Shown: in pieces, positions 9,513 to 23,968 of the stretch
Layout: each line of letters opens with the position of its first letter
Position numbering within the stretch: the stretch's first letter is position 1
Assembly: GCA_030681645.1 (NCBI GenBank)
Contig: JAUXRX010000007.1
Coordinates: 248,001-312,000, forward strand
Direction of reading: 5' to 3'
Source: Archangium sp.
GTDB taxonomy: Bacteria > Myxococcota > Myxococcia > Myxococcales > Myxococcaceae
Length of the DNA stretch: 64,000 nt
The notes under the pieces: generated by a model
What the model saw: the letters and a program-made list of their open reading frames with translations, nothing else
What the model was told of the DNA's origin: nothing
Database searches by the model: none
Position numbers and translations under genes: made by a program

Positions 9513-10223
9513 ATGTCTGAAGGCAAGCCAGCGCAGCCGCCCGGAGGAGCGAAAGACCGCAAGTTGCGGAACTTCCTTCTCGACGCACGCTTCCAGTTGA
9601 AGTTCGCCAGCTACTTCGTGGTGCTCACGCTGGTGATCACCGGCCTCCTCGGCGCGTTCCTCGTTCGCACCACCACGTCGTTGTTCTCTCAGATCTCCGC
9701 TTCCGTCGAGTCACGCAAGAAGGCCGCCGACACCAGCCGTGAGCTGGGCACCTGCACGCTCAACAACGAGCTGACCGCCAACATGGAAGACCCCGACTTC
9801 CTCGCCAAGCTGGGCGAGCGGAGCAAGGCCATCGACGCCAAGTTCGAGGCCGAGCGCGCGGCGGCGCAGGAACAGAGCATGGAAGTGCAGCGCCAGCAGC
9901 AGTGGACGCTCTACGCGCTGCTGGGGGTGCTGGTCGCCTTCATCGCGCTGATCGCCCTCACCGCGATCGTGATCACCCACCGCATCGTCGGCCCGCTCTT
10001 CCGCATCAAGCGCATGGCCCGCGAGGTGGCAGGCGGCGCGGTGCGGCCGCCGACCTACGGCCTGCGCCCCAGCGACGAGCTGCAGGACGTGTTCGAGGTG
10101 TTCGCCGACATGGTGACGCAGCTGCGCGCGCGCACCGAGGCGGATCTCGCGGCCGTGAAGGCGGGCGATCCCGAGACGCTCAAGAAGCTGCAGGCCACGC
10201 TCGAGGACCGGCTCAGCAAGTAG
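9513..10223 (+). CDS. HAMP-domain membrane protein without output domain
   Basis: This 236-residue inner-membrane protein has one membrane segment at about 31-52, a short periplasmic helical region (55-125), a second segment at about 131-153 and a HAMP domain at about 154-210 (THRIVGPLFRIKRMAREVAG...DELQDVFEVF). After the HAMP there is only a short coiled tail, with no kinase, methyl-acceptor or cyclase domain. It resembles stand-alone HAMP/sensor proteins common in myxobacteria, which must work through a partner. It follows the HEAT-repeat gene by 21 nt and its end overlaps the convergent exonuclease gene by 11 nt. Confidence 0.75.
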   Translation: MSEGKPAQPPGGAKDRKLRNFLLDARFQLKFASYFVVLTLVITGLLGAFLVRTTTSLFSQISASVESRKKAADTSRELGTCTLNNELTANMEDPDFLAKLGERSKAIDAKFEAERAAAQEQSMEVQRQQQWTLYALLGVLVAFIALIALTAIVITHRIVGPLFRIKRMAREVAGGAVRPPTYGLRPSDELQDVFEVFADMVTQLRARTEADLAAVKAGDPETLKKLQATLEDRLSK

Positions 10224-12192
10224 TGAAGGGCCGCGGGTCGAGCCCCTGGAGCGCGCGGCTGATCGGCTCCTGCGAGAGCCCCGTCGGCGAGACCAGCATC
10301 ACCCGCGGGGCGTTGCTCGAGAGCACGGCGCGCCGCCATTCCCTCACCCCGTAGAAGACGCAGGTCTGCCCCGCGGGCATGGCGCGATCGCGTCGCCACT
10401 CGCACAGCTGCACCGCTGACGCCCGCCCCGCGTCGAGTGAGACGGTGAGCCCCTGCCGCTGACATGCCTCGGCGATCGGCCCGAGGGGGGAGGGCGCCAC
10501 CAGCACCACCGGGCCTGCCCGTGACACCAGCTCTGCGAGGCGCTCGAGCGACGTCGGCTCGGCCAGCCACTCCAGCAGCGCGCCTGGCCGCTCGGTCGGC
10601 ATGCCCACGGGGGCTGCCTTCGTCCACGAGAGGCCCCCGTGGAAGCTCGAGATGAGCACGTGACCGCGCGTGAGGCGGCGGCGCACCCGATCGCCGGGCG
10701 CGATGGGCGTGCGCACCAGGCCCTTCGGGCTCACCTGCACCTCGTGGCCCGGTGGTGGAGGCTCGAGCACCTCGACGATGCGCCCCAGCAGCTTCGTGCG
10801 CTCGTCGCCCAGCGGGGCGGCGCGCAGCGTGTGCGAGAGGTGGGTCATCGCCTCGCGGATGGCGTGCCACTCGGGGCTCACCCGCGCGCGCATCATCACC
10901 GTGCCCGGCGGAAACGCGGCCAGCGCAGCGCCGAGCTCGGTCACGTGCGCCTCGAGGCCGCCGAAGCGCTCGAGCTGCCAGAGCTCGAGGGCGCGCTGGG
11001 TGCGGCGTCGCTCGACCTCGGGCAGGCGGTCGGCCTCGAGGAAGAGCAGTGGAACGGGCGCCCCCCGCTCGAGCCAGTCGAGCGCGTGCTCGTGGGTGAT
11101 CAGCACGCAGGGCTCTTCGCCGAGGCTGCGGCGGGCCAGGCAGCCGGGCTGGTCGCACCGGCAGGCCGCGGCGGAATCGAGCAGCGGCATCACCTCGGGG
11201 CACTTCGAGCGCACGAAGCCGCTGATGCCGTCGAGATCGCCGGTGCGGGTGCGGGTGAGCCACGACGTGAGGTACGCGCGGGCGAAGCGTGAACGCTCGT
11301 CGATGCCCCGATCGTCCAGGGCGGCCCAGAGCGCGGTCGAACACACCGCGTGGCGCGCCAGCGCGGGCGCTTCATCGGTCAGCTCGCGGAAGGTGCCGCC
11401 GGAGACGGCGACCGCCACCGGTTCACCCCGGGCCCCCGCCGCACGGCGACCTGCCTCACAGCCGATGCGCAGCAGGTCGCCCCGCTCGAGCTCGGCGGCG
11501 ACGAACGCGGGCGCCTCGAGCCACCGGGCGAGGTGGGCCGCGAGCCGCCTCCCGTCCGGGGAGAGCTCGGGTGCGGCCGCGGGCTCCGCGGGGCGGGAAG
11601 GCGCTGTGCGCAGGGCCTCGAAGAGCGAGCACATCGCGGTGTCGCCGCCATCGAGGTGGAAGATCAGGCGCTCGAGGCGCTCGCGCCCCTTCTCCTGCAG
11701 CACGCGGTCGCAGAGGGCGGCCAGCACCAGGAACGTATCTTCGGCGTCGTCGAGGGCGCGGTGCCGGGCGGCGCGGCCGATGTTCAGCCACCGCACCAAC
11801 GCGTCGAGCGAATGGCTGGCGCGCTCGGGGAAGAGCAGCTGCGCCACCTCGCACGAGTCGAGCATCACGTTCTGGGCGATGCGCTCACCGAGAAAGGAGC
11901 GCTCGAAGCTGGCGTTGTGGGCGACGAGCGTCCACCCCCCGAGCGCGGCGCGCAGCTCTGCGTCGATGGACTCGAGCGGTGGCGCGGACGCGACCTCCTC
12001 GTCGGTCAGCCCGGTGAGGGCGGTGATCAGCGCGGGAATGGGGCGGGTCGGGTGCACCAGCCAGCGGCGCCGCTCCGTCACGATCCCCCGCTCGACGAAG
12101 ACCGCGCCGATCTCGATGATCTCCTCGCTCGTGGGATCGAGGCCCGTGGTCTCGATGTCCACGAAGCACAGCCGCCGGAGGATTGAGGCCAT
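10213..12192 (-). CDS. DnaQ-type 3'-5' exonuclease fused to a degenerate DinG-like helicase
   Basis: Residues 7-175 are a DEDDh exonuclease: motif I VDIETTG (D12, E14), motif II AHNASFERSFL (with Glu where Asp is usual) and motif III HRALDDAED (H144, D149). The remaining 480 residues follow the layout of the DinG/XPD helicase: LLRIGCEAG where the Walker A strand should begin, a Cys-rich patch SKCPE...CRCDQPGC like the iron-sulphur region, then VLITHEHALDWL and LLFLEADRL where the DEAH box should be. The GxGKT and DEAH residues are missing, so helicase activity is unlikely. The ATG at 12192 (GGAAG just upstream, 659 residues) starts directly before the exonuclease; an alternative ATG is at 12231. 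Confidence 0.8.
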   Translation of the reverse strand: MASILRRLCFVDIETTGLDPTSEEIIEIGAVFVERGIVTERRRWLVHPTRPIPALITALTGLTDEEVASAPPLESIDAELRAALGGWTLVAHNASFERSFLGERIAQNVMLDSCEVAQLLFPERASHSLDALVRWLNIGRAARHRALDDAEDTFLVLAALCDRVLQEKGRERLERLIFHLDGGDTAMCSLFEALRTAPSRPAEPAAAPELSPDGRRLAAHLARWLEAPAFVAAELERGDLLRIGCEAGRRAAGARGEPVAVAVSGGTFRELTDEAPALARHAVCSTALWAALDDRGIDERSRFARAYLTSWLTRTRTGDLDGISGFVRSKCPEVMPLLDSAAACRCDQPGCLARRSLGEEPCVLITHEHALDWLERGAPVPLLFLEADRLPEVERRRTQRALELWQLERFGGLEAHVTELGAALAAFPPGTVMMRARVSPEWHAIREAMTHLSHTLRAAPLGDERTKLLGRIVEVLEPPPPGHEVQVSPKGLVRTPIAPGDRVRRRLTRGHVLISSFHGGLSWTKAAPVGMPTERPGALLEWLAEPTSLERLAELVSRAGPVVLVAPSPLGPIAEACQRQGLTVSLDAGRASAVQLCEWRRDRAMPAGQTCVFYGVREWRRAVLSSNAPRVMLVSPTGLSQEPISRALQGLDPRPFTTC

Positions 12193-12221
12193 CGCTTCCA
12201 CGCCGCGCACCCTACCTTGCT

Positions 12222-12237
12222 GCACCGACATCGGTGC
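12222..12237. promoter_or_regulatory. 16-bp dyad upstream of the exonuclease gene
   Basis: GCACCGA and TCGGTGC form a perfect 7-bp inverted repeat separated by 2 nt, 30 nt upstream of the chosen exonuclease start. It could be an operator for a dimeric regulator. If translation really starts at the ATG at 12231 it would overlap the start codon. Evidence is symmetry and position only. Confidence 0.3.
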
Positions 12238-12398
12238 GCTGGTGCGGGGGGCGCGTAGGTGCCCGGTCCTTGTGGCGGGAGATGTCGGAGTGGCGAGTAG
12301 AGGATGAGAGGTGGACGGGGCGGGCGGCGGGGCTTCGACGAGGAGGAGCCGAAGAAGAAGGCGAGCTGGTTGGCGGTGGTCATGGGCTTCTCGCTGCA

Positions 12399-12437
12399 CG
12401 CGGACACCGAGCGGGTTGCGAAGGTCAGGGCGAAGCT
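12399..12437 (+). repeat. 39-bp direct repeat, copy A
   Basis: This copy matches 15310-15348 at 38 of 39 positions (core GACACCGAGCGGGT then GCGAAGGTCAGGGCGAAGCT). Both copies encode the same residues (ADTERVAKVRAKL) on the plus strand. The two copies bracket the 2.9-kb segment holding the repeat lipoprotein and the flagellar-regulator remnants. Confidence 0.85.
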
Positions 12438-12600
12438 GGCGCACGAGCTCAAGCGTGACCCCGAGTCTCACGAGCTGGCGGCGGCTCTGGGCCTCGACGC
12501 GGCCGAGCCGAGCGACGACCTCGCCGACGTGAGGGTCGATCGCCAGCTCCTCTCGCGGCGCCTGGCCGCGGCCATCGCGCAGCTGCCCGACCTACTCCGT
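12399..12600 (+). pseudogene. Remnant of a FliA/WhiG-type sigma factor
   Basis: The plus strand encodes a short stretch resembling the region-3 to region-4 part of flagellar sigma-28: ELKRDPESHELAAALGL matches the usual pattern ELgR.Pt..ELA..lGl, and LSRRLAAAIAQLPDLLR matches the linker before region 4. The match then stops abruptly where the convergent lipoprotein gene ends, and the part before it is only the 39-bp repeat. Neither region 2 nor the final HTH is present, so this is a fragment, not a gene. The assignment rests on short motifs. Confidence 0.5.
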
Positions 12601-12609
12601 TTCCGGAAA

Positions 12610-14865
12610 TCACTCCTGCAGCACGACGAGATGAGCGTGTCTGCGATTGTCCGAGGACAGGCTGATGGGGCCCAGGCGCACGTTGACGCCCGTGACCAGG
12701 ACCACGATCTTGTCGCCGACTCGGTGGAACCGGGTGCTCCTGATGGTCTCCTGCGGAACGCGGATACTGTCGGAGAACTCCCAATGTCGGACGGGTGAGC
12801 GCAGATCGGCTGCGTCCAAGAATGAGAGCACCACGGTGGGAACCGTGTAATCCCGACCGTAGATGGTTGTGACTCCGCCGGACGCGGTGATGACGAATTG
12901 CAGAACAACAGATTCAGAGCCGCGCTCGACTTGAACCAGGCTGAGGCCCCCACCGCCGCCAACCGCCGGAGCGTGCCCTGCGCGCGTGACGACACTGCCG
13001 ACCCACTCCGCTACCCACGTTCCGGCTTGAGGTGTGGTAACGCCATTGCCGAAATCAGCAGGCCCGGCCAGTCCAACGACCAGGACTCCCCCGTCGTTGT
13101 CCGGCTTCGAGAGGCCAGCGATTTGACCACCGGCTCCATACGCACGAAGCCCCCTCCGGCACCTCAGGGAGGAGTCGAACTCAAGGAAGACTGGGTCGTC
13201 TCCAAGAGCCCCTCCCGCCGGCAGCATGCAATCGTCGAGCATGAGTGCGGCCCGGTAATTGAACACACACTTGAGGGTGTCGCCCGAACCGACGCACCTG
13301 TGTGGTATCGGAATACCGACGTGAGGAACTCTTGGCAGCGAGAAGGCGGGGGTGAAGCCACCATCCCGGTCGAGAAATCCGAGCCCTCCGCTGACCTGGC
13401 CACCGAAAGCCCCGACGCCGCGAAAAGCAACCATGCGTCCACGAAAGTTCGTCAAGTCGATGATGGTGGCATCGGTGTCGAAGCCGGTGGTGCTCGTTCC
13501 AAACGAGGGGTCGGTGGCGAGCGCTCCGAGAGTTCCGACGCTGATTCGAGCCGTCAGCGGAGTCGGGCGGCCGTTGCATTGAACGGCGCCGTTGACGGTA
13601 CCTTGGTAGCAATTGCCTCCAAGATAGAGGTCGCCGTCATCGGCGCGCGCGATGCTCTCGAAGAAGGGCAATGGGTTGAAGTCGGTGCTCTCGTGTTCAT
13701 TCAGTGGAAGGACCCACTCGGTGCCTCCGTCCCACTGCGTCTCGAGCAGCACGGCGAAGGTGGGCGCCGCGGCGGGCCGTGTGGCGTACGGCACGCCATC
13801 GATGGTGATGGTCTGCTCGGCGGACAGGGCGAGCGCGATGCCTGTTTCATCGGCCCAAAGGGCCTGCGCGCGAGCGTCGAAAGTCCGCGCCATGACGACG
13901 ACGGACTCGAAGCGCGCTTCGAGACGCAGGGGCGTCGCGCCAGCCGGAATGAGACAAGGTTGCACCCCTTGGCACCCGCCTCCGTCGAAGCCACGAAAGG
14001 AGACGTAGTCATCGGCGCGCGTGGCGGTGAAGGCGAGCGAAGTCCCCGATGGCACGACCGAAGTGCAAGTGCCGGCGTCGCAGAATGGGCTGTCATTGAG
14101 CTTCACCTGGCCCGAGGCGCCTCCCGTCATGGCGACCTCTATTCTGCGGCCCGCTTCAAAGTCCACCGTGACGACGGCGGGAGCAGAAACCGTGCAAGGG
14201 TTCGCCGCGCAAGCTCCGCCCAGCACTGCCGGCAGCGAGGTGTCGTCAGGCGTCGCGATGAGGCGGAGAGAGGCTCCGCGCGGAGGGAAGACCATGCAGG
14301 AACTCGTACACACCTGAGGCCCGGCGCTGACTTGTCCTCCTCCGTCTCCGATGAAGTCCACCCTGACACTCTCAGGTGTCCCGAACACGGCAGTGACGCT
14401 GCCTTCCGTGAGTTGGCAGAGGGCGGTCCCCTGGCACGCGCCGATGAAGCCCAGGAAGGAGCTCCCATCGAGGGCACGAGGTGCGAGGGTGAGAGGCGCG
14501 TCCGTGGGCCAGGCGCACTCGCTCGAGCAGGCTCTCCCATCGGAAGCCTCGACGAGGCCAGGACCCTCGACGCGGACGGTAATGACAGGGAGCGGCTCGA
14601 AGATCGCTTCGACGCGCTCCCCGCCGCGCACGGTGCATTGCGTCCTTCCGGTGCAGTCGCCGCCCCAGCGCGAGAAGCGCCAACCGTCGTCCGGCGTCAC
14701 GGCGAGCGTGGTGCTCATTCCATTGAGCCATATCGTGCAGACACCTGTGCACTCGCGAGCCCCCGCGCTGACGGTGCCCTTTCCCGTGACAGACAGTCGC
14801 AATTCGGGGTTACCGCAAGCTGATAGGCAGATAATCCCCAAGAGGGGAGCAGCTCTCACGGCCAC
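12610..14865 (-). CDS. Large surface lipoprotein with Cys-containing repeats
   Basis: This 751-residue protein starts with a lipoprotein signal (LLGIICLSAC, Cys at about 17). Residues 20-325 hold about four units of the divergent InlB-B/Flg_new-like repeat, each of the form GxGxVSAG...C...C...LxAxPD...GxC...CTV...VTVxFE, with paired Cys likely forming disulphides. The remaining 420 residues look like a beta-propeller-type domain with many Gly/Asp loops. A GTG at 14859 overlaps the stop of the preceding truncated frame (GTGA) and may be the true start; 14865 is also GTG. The gene seems less GC-rich than its neighbours and lies between remnants of flagellar regulators, suggesting acquisition by transfer. 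Probably outer-membrane or cell-surface; function unknown. Confidence 0.75.
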   Translation of the reverse strand: MAVRAAPLLGIICLSACGNPELRLSVTGKGTVSAGARECTGVCTIWLNGMSTTLAVTPDDGWRFSRWGGDCTGRTQCTVRGGERVEAIFEPLPVITVRVEGPGLVEASDGRACSSECAWPTDAPLTLAPRALDGSSFLGFIGACQGTALCQLTEGSVTAVFGTPESVRVDFIGDGGGQVSAGPQVCTSSCMVFPPRGASLRLIATPDDTSLPAVLGGACAANPCTVSAPAVVTVDFEAGRRIEVAMTGGASGQVKLNDSPFCDAGTCTSVVPSGTSLAFTATRADDYVSFRGFDGGGCQGVQPCLIPAGATPLRLEARFESVVVMARTFDARAQALWADETGIALALSAEQTITIDGVPYATRPAAAPTFAVLLETQWDGGTEWVLPLNEHESTDFNPLPFFESIARADDGDLYLGGNCYQGTVNGAVQCNGRPTPLTARISVGTLGALATDPSFGTSTTGFDTDATIIDLTNFRGRMVAFRGVGAFGGQVSGGLGFLDRDGGFTPAFSLPRVPHVGIPIPHRCVGSGDTLKCVFNYRAALMLDDCMLPAGGALGDDPVFLEFDSSLRCRRGLRAYGAGGQIAGLSKPDNDGGVLVVGLAGPADFGNGVTTPQAGTWVAEWVGSVVTRAGHAPAVGGGGGLSLVQVERGSESVVLQFVITASGGVTTIYGRDYTVPTVVLSFLDAADLRSPVRHWEFSDSIRVPQETIRSTRFHRVGDKIVVLVTGVNVRLGPISLSSDNRRHAHLVVLQE

Positions 14866-14999
14866 ACCAGTTGGGCACCATTCAATCTGAACTCACTGGC
14901 ATAGTTCTGAGAGGTGTGAACTCCGCTCAGGTCTGCTTCGACCGACTGGATATCGTTGGGCACAAATGAACCGTCCGGCAGAAGGCTATCAGTCAGCGA
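14856..14999 (-). pseudogene. Truncated 3' end of an unknown gene, coupled to the repeat lipoprotein
   Basis: About 47 codons of protein-like sequence (LLPDGSFVPNDIQSVEADL to FRLNGAQLVWP) read on the minus strand and end in a TGA that overlaps the GTG at 14859 by 4 nt, the pattern of translational coupling. No convincing start exists: further upstream the frame becomes the antisense of the FlhG-like remnant. It is probably the tail of a gene cut at a rearrangement junction near 15000-15090. The base composition is visibly poorer in GC than the flanks. Confidence 0.4.
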
Positions 15000-15096
15000 A
15001 ATCCCGAACAATATGAGACAAGGGATTACCTGTGACCGCGAGCCGCGTCTCTTGCAGGTAGGCGACAGCTCGAGCGCGTCGAAGTCGTAGGGCCAG

Positions 15097-15390
15097 ATGC
15101 GGGTGATGTCGGCGCTCGACGAGATCGAAGACGAGTTCGACATGGTTTTGATCGGCACCGGCGCGGGCATCGGAGACAACTGCTCTTTTCGTCGGCGGCG
15201 AGCAGGAAGCGCTGCTGGTAGTCACCCCCGAACCCACCTCGCTCACCGACGCCCACGCCGCGGTGAAGGCGCTCTCGCTGGAAGCGGGCGTCGAGCCCTT
15301 CCATGTGCGCGCGGACACCGAGCGGGTCGCGAAGGTCAGGGCGAAGCTTGACGTGGTGCTGCTCAATCTCGGCCTGCCCGACAACTGCGG
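15097..15390 (+). pseudogene. Remnant of FlhG-type MinD/ParA ATPase, frameshifted
   Basis: The first part reads FDMVLIGTGAGIGDN, the Walker-B region of FlhG/FleN ATPases (usual form VLIDTGAGIG, so the Asp is lost). After a frameshift near 15175, the next frame reads LFVGGEQEALLVVTPEPTSL followed by TDAHAAVKALSLEAGV, the TPEPTS-TDAYA signature of the same family. It continues through VRADTERVAKVRAKL to LNLGLPDN, matching the region before the C-terminus. The P-loop half is missing. The frameshift, lost catalytic Asp and truncation show that it is dead. Confidence 0.65.
15310..15348 (+). repeat. 39-bp direct repeat, copy B
   Basis: This is the partner of 12399-12437, with one mismatch (C for T at 15328). 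In this copy the sequence fits naturally inside the FlhG-like remnant, so it is probably the original context. Confidence 0.85.
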
Positions 15391-15425
15391 CCCTCCACCG
15401 ACGTCACTCCCGGGTTTCACCGGAG

Positions 15426-15851
15426 CTACTCGACCAGCAACACGCCGCCGATCATCATGTCCATCGCGCAGCCGAACTTCACCTTGCCGGCCTTCGTGGG
15501 CGTCCACGCCACCTCGACCGGCTTGTTGAGCGGCAGCGCCACCTTGATGTCCGTGCCGTCGATGAGGATGTCGGTCGCGCACGTCTCGTCGGTCTTGCGG
15601 GTGATCACGAGCGTGACCGGCGTGCCCGCCTTCACCGTCACGTTGGCCGGCACGAAGCCGTCGCCGGTGACCTCCATGGAAATCCGGTTGCCTGCGGCAG
15701 CAGCCGGGGCGGGCGCGGCCTCGGGCTTCGCAGGCTCGGCGGCGACGACGGCCTTCGGGGCCTCGGCGACGGGCGGCTTCGGAAGGGCCTCGTCTTTCTT
15801 GCAGGCTGCGAGGGTCAGGGTGAGCAGGGTCAAGGCGAGTGGTGTGCGCAT
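15426..15851 (-). CDS. Lipoprotein with cupredoxin-like domain
   Basis: This 141-residue lipoprotein has the signal MRTPLALTLLTLTLAAC with the lipid-carrying Cys at 17, then a Pro/Ala-rich spacer to about residue 57. The C-terminal 85 residues have the strand pattern of the EfeO/plastocyanin-like cupredoxin fold (ISMEVTGDGFVPANVTVKAG...VTLVITRK...GKVKFGCAMDMMIGGVLLV). The usual copper-binding His residues are absent; Cys (ETCATD and FGCAMDMM) and Met occupy the ligand positions. The ATG at 15851 is set by AGGAG 7 nt upstream. It may bind a thiophilic metal in the periplasm or be a purely structural domain. Confidence 0.75.
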   Translation of the reverse strand: MRTPLALTLLTLTLAACKKDEALPKPPVAEAPKAVVAAEPAKPEAAPAPAAAAGNRISMEVTGDGFVPANVTVKAGTPVTLVITRKTDETCATDILIDGTDIKVALPLNKPVEVAWTPTKAGKVKFGCAMDMMIGGVLLVE

Positions 15852-15983
15852 GTATGTCTCCTGAGTGGCCTGTCTAGCGCGACGGCCGTCGCCTCGCACG
15901 GTTACGCTTGGCTCGTCGGCGGTGAGACAGATTCGCCGACGCTGCCGTCTGGTTGATTGAAGGCAGCGACGAAGGAGCCGCAC

Positions 15984-23718: not shown

Positions 23719-23968
23719 GACCCTATCTCTCAGGTCGGTTGCTGTGATCACCGTCGTGCTACCGAGCGCACGAAAAGCCGTGCCCCCGGTAAGCCCGACG
23801 GCATCACAGCAACCGACCCCATCTCTCAGGTCGGTTGCTGTGATCACCATCGTGCGACCGAGCGCACGAAAAGCCGTGCCCCCGGTAGCCCGACGGCATC
23901 ACAGCAACCGACCCCATCTCTCAGGTCGGTTGCTGTGATCACCGTCGTGCGACCGAGCGCACGAAAAG
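23719..23968. repeat. Tandem palindromic repeat, 2.5 copies of 95-96 bp
   Basis: Units start at 23725, 23821 and 23916; the third stops at 23968. Each full unit carries inverted 16-bp arms (GGTCGGTTGCTGTGAT and its complement ATCACAGCAACCGACC; 23733-23748 with 23803-23818, and 23829-23844 with 23898-23913) and a smaller inner hairpin, TCGTGC near CGCACGA. Copies differ at only a few positions. The array fills the space between the divergent subtilase-like gene and ribF, so it must lie in or beside both promoters. Confidence 0.92.

Follow-up and report, generated by a model that had tools for sequence, protein, structure and literature searches.

A gap insert bearing circularly permuted flhG and fliA remnants in Archangium sp.

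The window considered here is a 64,000-nucleotide stretch of Archangium sp. DNA (assembly GCA_030681645.1, contig JAUXRX010000007.1, positions 248,001 to 312,000 of the forward strand). Between a cupredoxin-like lipoprotein gene and a DEDD-type exonuclease gene, it carries an insert of ~3.19 kb (~12232-15425), within which a 39-bp direct repeat brackets a lipoprotein-like open reading frame (ORF) and the end of an upstream ORF (Table 1), a content already described in a first-pass annotation made from the sequence letters. Decayed pieces of two flagellar genes lie at the ends of the bracketed segment on the same strand, fliA at the left and flhG at the right, and 25-39 fliA bases are present at both ends. 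At C54 (L002) of the same assembly and in the relatives examined, the two genes are neighbours, as had been expected, and their order is flhG-fliA. The layout in the window thus corresponds to an flhG'-'fliA fusion, linked to the lipoprotein unit, in circularly permuted order, and the permutation is genuine.

Flagellar remnants, the repeat and the permuted order

The FliA-like and FlhG-like character of the two pieces, first proposed from the sequence letters, was borne out by similarity searches. The fliA remnant aligns with fliA of G023 (tblastn, E 1.5e-12) and also with that of G022; it matches Pfam Sigma70_r3 (PF04539; E 1.1e-4) at 22.6 bits, below the gathering score of 25.3 bits, and NCBIfam FliA_WhiG (E 0.0043) at 16.8 bits against a cut-off of 189.6. 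This similarity spans ~67 codons with a 21-residue gap, so that the reading frame is incomplete, and its right edge is uncertain, a weak protein alignment extending to 12654, within the end of the lipoprotein ORF. The flhG remnant shows 83% identity over 216 bp to flhG of G022 (blastn, E 2.2e-55) and 79% identity to the resident copy at C54; it spans ~71 codons with a frameshift, and its frame is, therefore, also incomplete. Judged by these alignments, both remnants are real. They are likely passengers, and a function is not likely.

The coordinates of the repeat and its 38/39 identity were confirmed, the two copies being spaced by 2911 bp. Using +1/-3 scores, no gaps, and an 11-base seed over the whole window, the pair scores 35, compared with 16-20 for the top-scoring pair of each of 20 dinucleotide-shuffled sequences; the repeat is real, and far beyond chance level. 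Its 28-base core, searched with up to three mismatches in 96 family genomes (the present one included), gave three matches, namely the two copies themselves and one in an unrelated gene of G002 (three mismatches), and a 26-base pattern had no exact match among viral contigs. A multi-copy or phage element was rejected on these grounds. The strongest direct repeat in the window is a different one, separate from this locus, near 23859 and 23954 (score 78, spacing 95 bp).

The two copies had been assigned to the FliA-like and the FlhG-like remnant, respectively. The remnants stand, but both copies of the repeat are, on the best reading, fliA sequence (region 3). Local alignments at the DNA level, each with 100 shuffles, gave fliA of G022 a score of 38 against both copies of the repeat alone (shuffle maxima 33 and 32), while fliA of G023 scored 30 and 34 (maxima 31 and 36), and thus not above every shuffle. 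Copy 1 together with the sequence to its right reached 60 against fliA of G023 (maximum 41) and 51 against that of G022 (maximum 42); the G023 gene is LRADTERAQKTRASLARTLGREPEADEVASALG, and the corresponding window sequence is LHADTERVAKVRAKLAHELKRDPESHELAAALG. A FlhG alignment puts the repeat loosely within flhG, and tblastn against flhG of G023 extends a few residues into it. A piece of flhG was nevertheless rejected, as the DNA scores of flhG against the repeat alone (22-24) lie inside the shuffle range (maxima 27-29), whereas fliA of G022 stands above its shuffles.

Copy 2 is best read as a fusion of flhG to fliA, because flhG similarity ends at ~15308 and fliA similarity begins at 15306; TGC is common to both genes at this junction. 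Copy 1 is best read as a fusion of a transposase gene scrap to fliA. The transposase and fliA have the 11-bp sequence CGCGGACACCG in common at their junction and, therefore, bases 12399-12412 are assignable to either of them, which leaves just 25 bases of fliA as certainly redundant between the copies. The near-identity of the copies (38/39) is consistent with a doubling later than the decay of the scraps, although 39 bases prove little.

The segment had further been regarded as the remains of a resident flagellar locus in a lineage whose flagella had been lost, and neither proposal held. At C54, an SRP54-type flhF, a ParA/MinD-type flhG (named from its neighbourhood, its NCBIfam label being MinD-like), and fliA (185.2 bits, just below the cut-off of 189.6) stand intact in a row, and three flagellin-domain matches in the genome lie above the cut-off. 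As far as gene content tells, this lineage has kept flagellar genes. The contamination estimate of the assembly is 6.66%; the flhG at C54 nonetheless groups with the genus. The resident site of the segment is the cupredoxin-exonuclease gap, and the flhG scrap does not group with the flhG genes of the genus. It is nearest to G022 and G023 (79.2% each over 221 trimmed columns, compared with 72.4% for the C54 copy). Constraining it to the four genus sequences costs 26.9 log units (approximately unbiased (AU) test, p = 0.034), whereas its placement with G022 and G023 alone is not rejected (p = 0.153); no starred branch of the tree holds it. These p values are soft, as the groups were named after the identities had been seen and the alignment has 221 columns only. 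A distant MinD-like gene on C1 was removed as a row before the tree was built. Recent copying of the scrap from the resident gene is, on this soft AU result, disfavoured. Another MinD/FlhG-like ATPase gene, whose sequence is far from that of the flagellar flhG, was also seen at G000:C1:310790-310908 (L003), G000 being the present genome; the gene beside it is presumably of the HDOD type.

Insertion site, insert ends and cargo

A cupredoxin match is present in 49 of the 60 genomes searched, the present one included. Exonuclease orthologues adjoin it in G005, G003, G002, and G022, and partly in G018 (contig end), with gaps of 45, 51, 57, 87, and 54 bp, respectively (stop codon counted); the gap is 97 bp in G013 and 3.2 kb in the window. 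Within a chosen, non-random sample of 13 genomes, the two genes are adjacent in six (G002, G003, G005, G013, G018, G022), the gap is occupied in four (G000, G004, G012, G015), and three are not scorable, no exonuclease having been found beside the cupredoxin gene (G001, G006, G030). The other occupied gaps hold genes for a 1294-aa Kelch protein (G004, L078:5436-9320), a 635-aa beta-helix protein (G015, L154:3295-5202), and a 556-aa DUF4153 protein (G012, L156:3808-5478). Orthology is provisional in G012, G013, and G015, where just ~180 residues of the exonuclease match, with 43-46% identity; the ORF concerned is ~1000 aa long in G012 and G015. Differing cargo between genomes is, thus, secure for G000 and G004, and provisional for G012 and G015.

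The frame of the exonuclease ORF is open to 12471, and its alignments with relatives begin near 12195. Resident sequence can be followed further, to ~12231, because a TGTC-N12-TAGGGT element in the leader is common to relatives; the insert, therefore, runs from ~12232 to 15425. A script found the element in four of the six empty gaps (G002, G003, G005, and G022, not G013 and G018), and it was recognized by eye in the window and in G004. It precedes the exonuclease gene in the window and in five relatives (L076, L077, L078, L079, L082). It resembles what we take to be a DNA-damage promoter type (PafBC-like), which would suit an exonuclease.

The left end of the insert was described incompletely at first, the transposase scrap having been overlooked. 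This scrap is 84% identical over 62 bp to a sequence of G006 (E 9.1e-9), with further short matches in a search of 36 genomes, and it matches the relatives at a constant place within the transposase. A GFSL motif is found in ten rows of the 13 loci examined, which come down to seven separate places, spread over seven genomes (G003, G004, G005, G006, G009, G015, G029); L120, L121, and L122 are without it. The relative L119 (G004) belongs to the Y2_Tnp family (PF04986, E 4.1e-16), which we take to be IS91-type. PF04986 gave no match in the present genome and none in 14 control genomes, so that its absence from the former is not established. A TonB-like N-terminus had also been considered for this flank, and was rejected in favour of the transposase scrap. 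At the right end, a search gave 20 rows besides the sequence itself; of ten loci examined, seven are response-regulator-like, two protein-kinase-like, and one neither, so this end is possibly a response-regulator scrap.

The lipoprotein is likely the cargo of the insert. It has matches in 10 of the 96 family genomes, counting itself, and a single one in its own assembly; near-full-length homologues occur in G002 (37%) and G022 (32%) only, and the others match mainly over the repeat part. No match was obtained in plasmid or viral collections, where the viral search reaches close relatives only. The lower GC noticed at first pass was confirmed by codon analysis: the GC content at third codon positions (GC3) is 0.735 for the lipoprotein gene, versus, for the four closest genes measured, 0.918 (exonuclease), 0.930 (cupredoxin), 0.938 (VWA), and 0.951 (ORF 17223), and also versus 0.909 for ORF 6040 and 0.802 for a HEAT gene. 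In G002, a 241-aa ORF precedes the lipoprotein homologue with a 10-bp stop/start overlap, as in the window, and 8 of the 16 C-terminal residues of the ORF ending at 14856 match it (E 9e-4, single comparison); a comparable ORF was not detected upstream of the homologues in G022 and G119. A truncated partner gene is, from this resemblance, a possible but weak assignment.

Table 1. Features of the insert and its flanks (positions in the window).
Feature	Position	Strand	Remarks
DEDD-type exonuclease gene (resident flank)	10213-12195	-	RNase_T domain, PF00929, E 2.2e-21
Exonuclease leader with TGTC-N12-TAGGGT element	12196-12231	-	Last resident bases; 24 bp identical to G003
Left insert end	12232-12347		Only short scattered matches in 36 genomes
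Y2_Tnp (presumably IS91-type) transposase gene scrap, ~65 bp	12348-12412	+	Reads PKKKASWLAVVMGFSLHADT
Repeat copy 1	12399-12437	+	Best read as fliA region 3; first 14 bases fit the transposase too
fliA remnant	12399 to ~12600	+	Region 3 and part of the following; ~21 codons missing internally
751-aa lipoprotein-like ORF, open	12610-14865	-	Divergent InlB B-repeat domain, PF18998, E 6.8e-7
Possible 3' end of truncated upstream partner gene	14856-15080	-	Overlaps the lipoprotein ORF
flhG remnant	15088-15309 (blastn 15095-15308; outer bases by eye)	+	Frameshifted
Repeat copy 2	15310-15348	+	Best read as fliA region 3, fused to flhG
Right insert end	15349-15425	+	DVVLLNLGLPD motif; possible response-regulator scrap
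Cupredoxin-like lipoprotein gene (resident flank)	15426-15854	-	PF13473, E 5.9e-12

Routes to the permuted insert

The order of the pieces had been judged unfit for a simple insertion, and this judgement stands, as a circular permutation is not given by insertion with target duplication. Indeed, a simple insertion into an flhG-fliA remnant, with a 39-bp target duplication, would have left flhG on the left and fliA on the right, and was rejected on this order. For the mechanism, we infer from the permutation a head-to-tail (circular or tandem) intermediate and illegitimate recombination, a reading that we hold to be as probable as not. Lipoprotein-bearing DNA would have entered the gap between the cupredoxin and exonuclease genes, with the decayed flhG'-'fliA fusion and the lipoprotein gene linked head to tail in a ~2.9-kb circle or tandem array. 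The unit would next have been cut open at the fliA spot, or else copied for one full turn and some tens of bases more, after which illegitimate recombination, using short stretches common to both partners (CGCGGACACCG for transposase and fliA, TGC for flhG and fliA), would have linked its ends to the chromosome and to small fillers. A head-to-tail form opened at the fliA spot would yield the permuted order directly. Ku is encoded in this genome, which makes end joining possible in principle.

The empty gaps, the low GC3 of the lipoprotein gene, the affinity of the flhG scrap, the permuted order, the shared junction sequences, and Ku argue for the head-to-tail reading. Several points weigh against it. 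Neither a circle nor a tandem array nor a donor was detected, the lipoprotein gene having its single match in the assembly and none in the plasmid and viral collections; 14 of the 39 bases of copy 1 fit the transposase as well, which reduces the certain fliA redundancy to 25 bp; two separate junctions fall within ~14 bp of one fliA spot, a coincidence that this reading does not explain; and Ku's part in joining of this kind comes from general background. In a bolder version, which we consider improbable, the insert would be a rolling-circle fossil: copying, having passed from a Y2-type transposase by template switching at the shared 11 bp, would have run for one turn plus 25-39 bases around a ~2.9-kb circle with the lipoprotein gene and the decayed flhG-fliA fusion, and the product would have entered a gap where surface-protein genes are repeatedly gained in this myxobacterial family.

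The main rival to the head-to-tail reading is a capture of overlapping scraps: in break repair, the lipoprotein gene would have been linked to unrelated short fragments, two of which overlap and derive from a single flhG-fliA locus, without any circular or tandem form. The several origins of the insert pieces (transposase, fliA, flhG, lipoprotein unit, ends) and the presence of Ku are in line with such a patchwork, but independent fragments would leave unexplained why the two fliA pieces share a starting point to within a few bases, and we regard it as unlikely while giving it real weight. The identical order and the 2911-bp spacing would also result if a 2.9-kb unit (flhG'-fliA'-lipoprotein) had been duplicated in tandem in place, and both copies had afterwards lost their outer parts through deletions. 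This route is nevertheless rather unlikely, as it needs two independent deletions that leave 39 bp of the 2911-bp unit duplicated (roughly 1 in 75 if the end points are random, by our estimate), besides an initial insertion into the gap. The first-pass proposal of circle integration, or of duplication and then deletion, is still reasonable in its general form; the site-specific or 39-mer crossover form is disfavoured. The textbook result of either route, a site-specific integrase acting on a circle or homologous crossover of that circle with a 39-mer that the target already contained, is a permuted insert between direct repeats, as seen here. Yet the repeat reads as fliA coding sequence, the six empty gaps hold no similar sequence (best local score 9 of 39), the core occurs elsewhere in the 96 genomes as one unrelated match only, and no integrase family was found among the ORFs scanned between the copies or among the 15 Pfam-scanned ORFs as a whole (five, and ten more of at least 100 aa; ORFs under ~84 aa were not covered), so that this form is very improbable. 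A single crossover of a circle with a resident transposase gene at CGCGGACACCG was also considered and rejected, as copy 2 runs 25 bases into fliA and not into the other transposase half.

The remaining explanations are fainter still. An assembly chimera could be suspected from the contamination estimate and from the four near relatives that are metagenome bins (three Archangium, one Myxococcales), which the present assembly may be likewise; against this, the contig is 592 kb long, the insert is flanked by resident genes, and the scraps look aged (frameshift, internal deletion, one mismatch), which leaves this explanation a slight chance. The remnants are truly flhG and fliA, as would be expected of the relic of a resident locus in a lineage without flagella, but the intact flhF-flhG-fliA row at C54, the flagellin-domain matches, the empty gap in relatives, and the affinity of the scrap outside the genus reduce the probability of such a relic almost to nothing.

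Comparison with known systems

If the head-to-tail reading is true, the insert would constitute a small example of how myxobacteria gain lineage-specific surface proteins from circular or tandem DNA joined illegitimately. The locus also calls for caution, as scraps of flagellar genes can be passengers and, alone, are no proof of flagellar loss.

One-ended rolling-circle transposition of the IS91/ISCR group, for which circular intermediates and the capture of neighbouring DNA have been described, resembles the present case in the transposase scrap at one insert end. Unlike these elements, the segment is without an intact transposase or a recognized ori or ter end, and the transposase is cut mid-gene at the shared 11-bp sequence. 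Their insertion adjoins a GTTC/CTTG-type target; no such tetranucleotide lies at the insert edge, the CTTG at 12216-12219 being followed by similarity to relatives that continues to ~12231. The integration of excision circles offers a likeness in the permuted order between direct repeats; it differs in that no integrase was found on the segment, the empty site has no match, and the repeat is best read as fliA coding sequence.

The closest comparison is with the accessory-gene insertions in variable intergenic gaps of large bacterial genomes, with which the insert shares conserved neighbours, a gap that is empty in relatives, four occupied gaps with different genes, and a cargo with odd codon use. 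Unlike these insertions, its ends bear the permuted flhG-fliA scrap and the 39-bp redundancy. The feature is real and of an ordinary kind: an inserted accessory gene accompanied by rearranged scraps, whose permutation is the sole unusual point.

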